DNA from: Paracoccus zhejiangensis
GTDB lineage: Bacteria > Pseudomonadota > Alphaproteobacteria > Rhodobacterales > Rhodobacteraceae
Assembly (NCBI RefSeq): GCF_002847445.1
Contig: NZ_CP025430.1
Span: forward strand, 372,001-436,000
Length of the DNA stretch: 64,000 nucleotides
Reading direction: 5' to 3'
Both the position numbers and the translations under genes were made by a program. Each line of letters starts with the position of its first letter. Position 1 is the stretch's first letter. A model generated the notes under the pieces. It saw only the letters and a list, made by a program, of their open reading frames with translations. It was not told where the DNA came from and made no database searches. This document shows positions 53,558 to 56,606 of the stretch, piece by piece.

Positions 53558-54016
53558 GTGAGCATTTCCGAAACCGACATGGACTTCACGGTCTGGGCGA
53601 TCATCGACAAGCCGCGCGAGACGGTCTTCGAGGCGGTGGCCGACCCGGCGCAGCTCTCGGCCTATTTCACCACCGGCGGGGCCAAGGGCCGCATGGATCG
53701 CGGCGCCACCGTCAGCTGGGAGTTCGGCGATTTCCCCGGCCCCTTCGACGTGACCGTGCTGATCGCCGAGAAACCCGAGCGCATCGAGTTCGACTGGCCC
53801 GCCCCCTCGGGCAACGGTCTGAACCGGGTGATCTTCCGCTTCGAGGAATTGCCCGCCGGCCGCACCAAGGTCCACGTCACCGAAACCGGCTGGCCCGCCA
53901 CCCCCGAGGGGCTGAAGCAGGCCTACGGCAATGTCATGGGCTGGTCCCAGATGCTGGCCGCGATGAAGGCGTGGGTCGATCATGGGGTGGGGTTGCGGGA
54001 GGGGATGTATGTGTGA
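53558..54016 (+). CDS. SRPBCC / AHSA1-like domain protein
   Basis: A 152-residue single-domain START/Bet v1-like protein. The N-terminal DFTVWAIIDKPRETVFEAV and ADPAQLSAYFTTGGAKG, then VTVLIAEKPERIEFDW, match the AHSA1 branch (activator of Hsp90-like, hydrophobic ligand-binding cavity). Start GTG at 53558, 11 bases after an AAGGGAG site. It stands alone. Its stop TGA is followed by six Gs and the AT-rich reverse-transcriptase island. Ligand unknown. Confidence 0.85.
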   Translation: MSISETDMDFTVWAIIDKPRETVFEAVADPAQLSAYFTTGGAKGRMDRGATVSWEFGDFPGPFDVTVLIAEKPERIEFDWPAPSGNGLNRVIFRFEELPAGRTKVHVTETGWPATPEGLKQAYGNVMGWSQMLAAMKAWVDHGVGLREGMYV

Positions 54017-55925
54017 GGGGGGTGACGCGATCCCGGCGTTTCGTAGATGCAGCAGCGGACCGTAGCATATCCGGCCCAAACTCGAGATATTAATCAAGTG
54101 CAGCGTCCGCCCCGCTACGACCGAAAAGCTCTAGTGCTGAACTTCAATAGATGACATTTGAACACGCTGACGGAAACCCGATCATTTTTCGGCCCATGAC
54201 TAGGAAAATTCGGCGTACTCACGAAAAAGCGAGAGCTCTTCGGTATGTGGAACTGCATCGAGTTCTTCCGGATTGCTGACAACGATTTTTTTGACATCAA
54301 GTGCCTTGAGCAAAGCTTGATTGCTGATCCAGTCATTGTTCCAGAGCTGAACACTATTGCCGTTGACTATTTGGCAAATCGGTTCGGTGCTGTCAAAGGT
54401 TAATCCAACGCCTTTGGCTCTTGTGACTCGCTGCAGCCAAATTTCGAGATGACCGTTATGCGGTATCCGCTTCAATTTCTCGGCTACCTTTCCCCATATT
54501 CCCTGGCGGTCTGACTCTGGGGCAAGTGAAATAAGTTTGGCAAGAATTCCAGATAACGCAGGAAAGGCACTAGGCGAAATCACAGCAATATCGCAAATAA
54601 TCGCCACCTGAACGCCAAGATCTTCGGGAGGTTCAGCAATCGTAGATATTTTCTTGAACGCGCTATCCGCTAAGCGTTTTATTGAACCTGTATTAGGGTA
54701 AAGGCGAGCAAACGAGTGAAGTCGCAGTAACTGCTTTTGAATAGTCTTCGCTTGTGTGATGTCCATATTCTCGAGTTGCATACCTGCCAGCTTCTCGGGC
54801 TTGATGGCGCCCTCGATAATATTGGTGCTAACAGAAGTTTTTGCAGCGCCAAGCTGCATCCCAACTTTTCTGAGACAGTCACTGATTACCCTGACGATCT
54901 CAGACGCTCGCTGATCGTTCAACGTGAAGATGCTGTAGTCGTCGCGATACCTTAGGATATGAAAGTTCTTTTCTCCTGTTAGGTTTTCGGTAATCAAGTG
55001 ATCAACATATGCTAATACCAATTCGGCGATAATATCCATCAGAACAGAGCCTTGTGTAATTCCGTTCGTCTGGCCGTAACGACTGTTCCGTATGTGAAAA
55101 TCGATTTTATTTCCAAACAGCTCTTTGTCATTCTGTGTTGCTTTAGCAGCTTTGTATCCGTGTAGAGCCCATGGAATACTGTGGGTATAGAGCGAACCAT
55201 AGCAGTTAGACACATCTGTTTTTAGCAGGTGTGTGTAATCCATCGACAGCTCTAGAGAACGTTGCTCGTATCGCAGCCACCAGTTTCGAACTTGAACGGC
55301 ATCATGCTTGTCGTCGCCATTAGATGCCATAGGAAAGCTAGTGCACTCCACAACGCCTGAGTGCAGTTCTTTAAAACGATTTTGAAGCAATTTCCAGTTT
55401 GATTCTTCGCAGAAAATCTTAACCAAAGTCATGTAAATTGCTGGATGAATGAGCTCAAACGGTCGCCAGGCAAAGCGCCCATCTTTCGTGCTCAGAAGCT
55501 CGTAGTTGACACCGGGCATATCAACTGGACGGTTAGGCTTTGTCTTTTGAAAGGCAAGATATGTATCTTCCCCCAAGGTCGCTGCAGTTTCTTTCAAAAT
55601 AGCTTCAAAGCTGATGTATGGAGGGAAATCCGACCGAAAGTAGCATTCTGGTTTCTCAAGGTAAGATCTTGCAGCAGCAGCCTCTAAATCGACAATTCGT
55701 GTCATAAACAATATTCCACAGCCATGTTAATCAAGCTTCTGGGCTATGCCTCAGCACACGGCCTATTGATGCGACATGAGCAGAGAAATGCCAAGGCCAC
55801 TAACCGCGAATAACGCTCCTCTCTGGCGACAGCGGCGAACGGCCACTTCCCGGCCTGTCTGCCGATGGCGTCCCGGCCCGATTTGGGATTGAGCATCTGC
55901 AGCGAAAAGGAGGAAGTTCCCCCCC
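54017..55925 (-). other. AT-rich island 2 between the SRPBCC and DUF2270 genes, carrying one reverse-transcriptase gene
   Basis: Like island 1 this is an AT-rich block between two converging GC-rich genes, with one gene on the minus strand (54200-55705), 183 non-coding bases after it and 220 before it. No maturase/endonuclease, integrase, transposase, or second open frame is apparent. Both neighbouring genes end in TGA plus a G tract reading inward: 54014-54022 on plus, 55928-55919 on minus. The 220-base stretch upstream of the gene becomes GC-rich again toward 55925; it is unclassified. Confidence 0.7.
54200..55705 (-). CDS. Reverse transcriptase of the Abi/DRT (unknown-group, retron-I-like) class
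   Basis: A 501-residue RNA-directed DNA polymerase. The palm motifs are readable: motif A LLKTDVSNCYGSLYTHSIPW with Asp164, motif B TNGITQGSVLMDIIAEL, and the catalytic YRDD box at residues 253-256 (HILRYRDDYSIF). The YTHSIPWAL stretch after motif A is typical for RTs that are not group II introns or DGR enzymes but belong to abortive-infection or defence-associated RT groups. A 230-residue C-terminal helical part without known domain follows. There is no nitrilase, protease or second RT alongside. AT-rich with foreign codon use. The start is ATG 55705; a TTG lies two codons upstream. The DRT subgroup and product cannot be fixed from sequence alone. Confidence 0.85.
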   Translation of the reverse strand: MTRIVDLEAAAARSYLEKPECYFRSDFPPYISFEAILKETAATLGEDTYLAFQKTKPNRPVDMPGVNYELLSTKDGRFAWRPFELIHPAIYMTLVKIFCEESNWKLLQNRFKELHSGVVECTSFPMASNGDDKHDAVQVRNWWLRYEQRSLELSMDYTHLLKTDVSNCYGSLYTHSIPWALHGYKAAKATQNDKELFGNKIDFHIRNSRYGQTNGITQGSVLMDIIAELVLAYVDHLITENLTGEKNFHILRYRDDYSIFTLNDQRASEIVRVISDCLRKVGMQLGAAKTSVSTNIIEGAIKPEKLAGMQLENMDITQAKTIQKQLLRLHSFARLYPNTGSIKRLADSAFKKISTIAEPPEDLGVQVAIICDIAVISPSAFPALSGILAKLISLAPESDRQGIWGKVAEKLKRIPHNGHLEIWLQRVTRAKGVGLTFDSTEPICQIVNGNSVQLWNNDWISNQALLKALDVKKIVVSNPEELDAVPHTEELSLFREYAEFS

Positions 55926-56606
55926 TCACCCCATCCCCAGCGGATCCCGCCGCTTCTGCGCCCGGCGGCGGTCGCGCCTGCCGCTCATCACCGCGATCAC
56001 CCCGAAGCTGGCGCAGTAGACCGCGCCCATCAGCAGGACCAGCCAGCCGGGCAGGGGGCCGATGGCGGCGCGGTCGAGGAACTGGCCGGCCGAGGTCAGC
56101 GGCGTCGGATGCACCGCCAGCTTGCCCAGGTAGGCGATGGTCTGGATGAGCAGGATCCAGAAATAGTTGCGCCGGATGCGGCGCCCCACCGCCGTCCACA
56201 TGCTGACGTGGTAGGAGGGGCGCATATAGTCATCGGCCAGCCGGTCCTGCCAGTGCTCTTCCAGGTGCAGGTCGCCCTCTTTCAGGATCGGGGCGATGAA
56301 ATGCAGCTCCAGCCAGCGGCAGCGCGCGCGCCAGACGTTGAAATAGCGATAGCGCCGGGCCTCGAGCATCAGGAAGAAGACGATCAGGATGCCGACCAGC
56401 ACCAAGGGCAGCGGCGAGGCCTGCGGCGAGGAATAGGTGATCGACAGCGCCACCCCCAGCGTCACCACCGACCAGTTGGTCGAGGTGTCGAGCCGGGTGC
56501 GCCAGATGGTCGAGCGATAGACCTCGCCGCGATAGAGATGCGCCAGCACCCCCATCTCGGCCGAGTCCAGTTGCTTGCGTTCGCGGAGCTCGCCGTCTTC
56601 GGCCAT
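55926..56606 (-). CDS. DUF2270 family predicted membrane protein
   Basis: A 226-residue protein. The N-terminal MAEDGELRERKQLDSAEMGV is cytoplasmic, then GVLAHLYRGEVYRSTIWRTR, then four hydrophobic segments (about 45-62, 65-85, 145-165, 180-205), with a soluble stretch between the second and third that holds RYRYFNVWRARCRWLELHFI. This matches DUF2270, of unknown function, a family widely found in alphaproteobacteria. Its stop is followed by seven Gs on its own strand at the island border. Confidence 0.8.
   Translation of the reverse strand: MAEDGELRERKQLDSAEMGVLAHLYRGEVYRSTIWRTRLDTSTNWSVVTLGVALSITYSSPQASPLPLVLVGILIVFFLMLEARRYRYFNVWRARCRWLELHFIAPILKEGDLHLEEHWQDRLADDYMRPSYHVSMWTAVGRRIRRNYFWILLIQTIAYLGKLAVHPTPLTSAGQFLDRAAIGPLPGWLVLLMGAVYCASFGVIAVMSGRRDRRRAQKRRDPLGMG

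Follow-up and report, generated by a model that had tools for sequence, protein, structure and literature searches.

What kind of enzyme is encoded by the lone reverse transcriptase (RT) gene that lies in a low-GC insert of the Paracoccus zhejiangensis chromosome, and does it represent a new anti-phage system? We addressed this question for a window of 64,000 nt (contig NZ_CP025430.1, positions 372,001 to 436,000; coordinates below are those of the window). A preliminary description of the locus placed the RT in the Abi/DRT class, regarded it as an undescribed or poorly described system and took its C-terminal ~230 residues, of unknown fold, for a possible effector or primer. Our analysis confirms that the intact RT gene in a low-GC insert is a real observation and not a product of chance, and shows that the protein is a full-length member of the Abi-P2 family, an assignment on which profile and sequence comparisons, tree and predicted fold agree. 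This family has already been described, with a solved structure, and the gene is new only as a member of it.

The open reading frame (ORF) has 503 codons on the minus strand; it opens with a TTG at 55711, and its stop lies at 54200. An ATG at 55705, two codons inside it, gives 501 residues, the typical length of the closest homologues; residues are numbered in this 501-residue protein and codon positions were computed from this ATG (Table 1). The gene is under purifying selection: of five close homologues compared, four give ratios of non-synonymous to synonymous substitution rates (dN/dS) of 0.05-0.07, and dS was saturated for the fifth. A 79-codon GTG ORF (54115-54354) overlaps its end out of frame.

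The AbiP2 profile matches the protein with 585.5 bits over residues 3-500, ahead of all other RT profiles; the next, Drt6, reaches 175.1 bits, and scores were also obtained for Drt4 (149), Drt3b (123) and AbiK (110). On the same AbiP2 model pro147 scores 531.5 and P2-EC58 530.4 bits, while the curated NCBIfam cut-offs are missed for both Drt4 (135 of 450 bits) and Drt3b (115 of 350 bits). Full-length sequence and fold match the Abi-P2 proteins of P2-like prophages (ORF570 of P2-EC30, ORF544 of P2-EC58; PDB 7r08), which share the two-domain build, the catalytic aspartates, the position of the priming tyrosine and the occurrence as a single gene in a variable site, although identity is only ~30% and the gene here is chromosomal, between AHSA1 and DUF2270 genes, rather than part of a P2-like prophage. 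Identities to other systems are lower, at 17-18% for DRT6, DRT4 and UG15 and 16% over the aligned part for AbiK. In a phylogeny, 30 Abi-P2 rows group together with a support of 96/98, with the Drt3b rows outside them; six of the 30 were scanned with profiles and the others included by similarity, and two copies were left out, namely L056, which is the contig of L016 found a second time, and an Agrobacterium plasmid copy with a broken frame (L068). The predicted fold, in which an RT-like domain lacking a thumb precedes the helical domain of Abi-P2, was aligned to 7r08 over model residues 1 to 494. The assignment to Abi/DRT-class RTs is thus borne out by profiles, tree and predicted fold. The C-terminal part, on the other hand, does not have an unknown fold, since the alignment to 7r08 spans it, and the full-length AbiP2 match together with the match to a solved structure removes the system from the undescribed or poorly described ones.

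We then located the residues on which catalysis and priming may depend. Alignment places Asp164, the YTHSIPW segment (residues 173-179) and the YRDD motif (253-256) as previously described, and the catalytic aspartates are intact. Conservation was counted in the best 120 of 1905 homologues, among them the window's own protein (P0001). In this set Asp164, Asp255 and Asp256 are invariant (120/120), Arg254 is kept in 119 and Tyr253 in 118. Tyr30 is tyrosine in 119 of these 120 sequences, the other being a gap, and the same counts apply to Tyr22. In P2-EC30 numbering the tyrosine of LPAYINF is residue 61 and that of YRDD residue 282, matching the numbering in the relevant passages of PMC9508834; Tyr30 aligns with this Tyr61 and Tyr22 with Tyr53. 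According to the same passages (Figiel et al. 2022), Y61F abolishes DNA synthesis and Y46F retains it, and the tyrosine tests reported there concern Tyr46 and Tyr61 only. As judged from the alignment, priming probably starts from Tyr30, close to the N-terminus, and not from the C-terminal part; no separate effector domain was seen, and the proposal of a C-terminal primer or effector is accordingly not upheld.

We consider it highly probable that the protein is an Abi-P2 polymerase, predicted to build untemplated DNA on Tyr30 and likely stopping phage by abortive infection. The anti-phage role proposed earlier is likely by family membership. Abi-P2 is reported in part of PMC9508834 to be a trimer, and ORF570 to confer resistance to T5. 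The protein described here would form trimers like 7r08, and the RT-like domain of each chain would add nucleotides to its own Tyr30 without a template. The helical domain, placed where other RTs have the thumb, would hold the growing single strand instead of a template. Infection would release or boost the polymerase activity, and the infected cell would die or stall before phage release. The passages of PMC9508834 on these steps leave the trigger and the toxicity of the DNA open.

Several observations weigh against this reading. The tree has long outgroup branches, whose joins may be artefacts according to a warning from the program. No other defence gene adjoins the RT in the window, its neighbours being AHSA1 and DUF2270. 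Being only ~30% identical to the E. coli enzymes that have been tested, the protein may have another trigger, another phage range or another product. Moreover, Tyr30 is not absolute, as it is tyrosine in 29 of the 30 tree rows and tryptophan in L061. Tyr22 is kept in all 30, including L061 with its tryptophan at the usual priming position, and for this reason we also considered that Abi-P2 enzymes can prime from this second tyrosine (Tyr53 of P2-EC30), which could be an alternative site of DNA attachment or an ancestral one, an idea to which we give a small chance.

Three other explanations compete with untemplated synthesis on Tyr30 by an Abi-P2 enzyme. The enzyme could follow its family in sequence and yet, unlike the type member, make a defined repeat, with side chains selecting the nucleotides as reported for DRT3b (UG8). 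The window protein and DRT3b have the YTHSIxWA stretch and the TNGI motif of the RT core in common. DRT3b is reported in part of PMC13174585 to need no nucleic acid template for making poly-(dCdA), using R241 and E22 as selectors, but also to work with DRT3a and a non-coding RNA and to prime from a C-terminal tyrosine, Tyr666. Beside the window gene there is no DRT3a partner RT, the Drt3b profile stays at 123 bits against 585 for AbiP2, the Drt3b rows lie outside the Abi-P2 rows in the tree and they differ at the positions of Arg254 and Asp224, which makes a defined repeat improbable here. The gene could also encode the RT of a mobile intron or a retron, intact or decayed, since the RT core is common to all of these, and the group II intron maturase and retron St85 models do give scores (42 of 300 and 33 of 235 bits), both below the curated score. 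Rfam gave no match to intron RNA around the gene, and profiles, tree and predicted fold all speak against such an origin, which we regard as next to impossible. The earlier preference for an Abi/DRT-class RT over group II intron, diversity-generating retroelement and retron RTs is sustained.

A dependence on a non-coding RNA from the gene's own flank, as in RNA-templated DRTs (class 2) such as DRT2, DRT9 or DRT10, was assessed by comparing flanks in 11 and later in 25 loci. A stretch of ~170-180 nt upstream of the gene recurs at 63% identity in L002 and L013, which lie at other sites, but the leader is unrecognisable outside these two among the 25 loci at E 1e-4, and close kin are too few for covariation. 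In L052, L061 and L062 a thyX gene accounts for the strong match upstream. Compared with dinucleotide shuffles, neither flank folds into a more stable RNA (z 0.91 and 0.78), and there was no match to Rfam, either at gathering thresholds in the whole window or up to E 1 in 53900-56050. Abi-P2 probably counts among class 1 of the unknown-group (UG)/Abi enzymes. Class 1 UG/Abi systems are described as template-independent in parts of PMC13174585 and PMC13275509, and a passage of PMC12596737 reports AbiA, AbiK and AbiP2 to work without nucleic acid cofactors. Nothing in these comparisons pointed to an RNA partner, and we rate one as very unlikely.

How did a gene of this family come to lie at this site? 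The GC content is 45.6% in the gene (46.6% at third positions), 55.4% in the upstream and 52.5% in the downstream flank, compared to 65.6% in the window. By its DUF2270 gene, which is 94% identical, G095 is the nearest genome compared. Homology to it extends to 54020 on the left side and is regained at 55923, at either edge a few bases from the stop codon of the neighbouring gene; the ~1.9 kb between these edges is therefore an insertion, or a replacement of other cargo. In G095 the AHSA1 and DUF2270 genes are separated by 484 bp that lack an RT and hold, at its site, an ORF of 93 codons encoding a bacterial SH3 domain (L021:2194-2472). AHSA1 was found at 7 of 29 relatives' DUF2270 loci, with gaps of 6 to 484 bp, and not at the other 22 within ~1.5 kb on each side (less at contig ends). 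The GC values and the RT-free site of G095 agree with the earlier view of a single gene in a foreign-looking AT-rich insert; the flanks alone hold four ATG ORFs of at least 25 codons, 29 to 50 codons long and known by length only. A scan for sigma-70 promoters returned two sites, both within the gene, compared to 2.1 in shuffles. The insert edges carry a perfect 10-nt inverted repeat (54013-54022 and 55920-55929), which raised a transposon origin. This was ruled out, as the RT-free G095 has GTGAGGGG and CCCTCAC at the same gene ends; the repeat comes largely from host gene ends, because G095 also has most of it. The RT gene was likely acquired by horizontal transfer.

The distribution of the kin was followed in genomes, plasmids and phages. 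At E 0.001, 10 of 196 relatives matched, four of which carry this Abi-P2 (the genome itself, G007, G032 and, in pieces, G021); a profile scan covering four of the six remaining genomes (all but those of L009 and L010) assigned their five RTs to Drt3b or Drt6. At E 1e-60 there were matches in 6 of 394 genomes of the family, 15 of 390 of the order and 2 of 385 of the class, in overlapping sets that each include the genome itself. Matches were found in 205 of 72,556 plasmid records, one of them above 60% identity, and in 9 of 50,697 phage records, all below 60%; viral contigs gave no relative with the patterns used. Phage pro147 (L064:562-4551) carries, according to the record annotation, an RT and effector of the retron Ec48 type next to its Abi-P2 gene. 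The alphaproteobacterial kin (for example L002, L013, L019, L050 and L051) are 80-85% identical and 500-501 residues long, and they occupy other sites. In two of them (L013:525-4808 and L014:8001-11936) a DRT8 pair of RT and PDDEXK nuclease lies near the gene in differing relative orientation, which looks like defence-island clustering; type I restriction genes adjoin it in L016, resolvase genes stand on both sides in L072, and the one plasmid copy above 60% identity, from a Paracoccus plasmid and 80% identical, lies between IS1182 and IS66-type insertion sequence genes. In G021 (L073:6662-9239 and L011) the gene breaks after ~414 codons; a Mutator-family transposase gene lies ~50 bp away, and the remainder is at the end of another contig.

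No recurrent partner was found when ORFs of at least 80 codons were clustered in 25 loci with flanks of differing lengths: in close kin nothing but the RT, together with frames antisense to it, occurs in at least three loci, Drt8, present in two, having been merged into the RT cluster. The one neighbourhood common to three loci (L083-L085) belongs to a more distant Abi-P2 branch. There, in three genera, the gene is directly downstream of thyX (thymidylate synthase) on the same strand (L083:7905-10321, L084:7055-9488 and L085:7050-9482), a few bases apart or overlapping; Pfam Thy1 was checked in L084 only. The pairing of dTMP synthesis with a template-free DNA polymerase is curious, and may be only a shared insertion site. 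The patchy, site-changing distribution would fit a mobile defence gene.

Table 1 Features of the Abi-P2 locus in the window.
Feature	Position	Strand	Basis
Gene for an Abi-P2 family RT-like polymerase, ATG start, 501 codons (TTG at 55711)	54200..55705	-	
Tyr30 codon, counterpart of priming Tyr61 in P2-EC30 Abi-P2	55616..55618	-	alignment
Tyr22 codon, conserved as Tyr30 is, without assigned role	55640..55642	-	alignment, conservation counts
Catalytic Asp164 codon	55214..55216	-	alignment, conservation counts
Tyr253-Arg254-Asp255-Asp256 codons	54938..54949	-	alignment, conservation counts
Non-coding leader within insert	55706..55922	-	flank comparison, RNA folding
Non-coding tail within insert	54021..54199	-	G095 alignment edge, RNA folding
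AHSA1-domain gene, left neighbour, outside insert	53558..54016	+	
DUF2270 membrane-protein gene, right neighbour, outside insert	55926..56606	-	

The gene is thus real and intact, likely horizontally acquired and likely anti-phage, and belongs to a described family, and a lead that resembled an unknown defence system is now closed. The finding adds an alphaproteobacterial Abi-P2 branch, ~70-86% identical to the window protein and ~30% to the tested E. coli enzymes, which travels as a one-gene insert, and it provides a divergent enzyme for testing how general the features of protein-primed synthesis without a template are.
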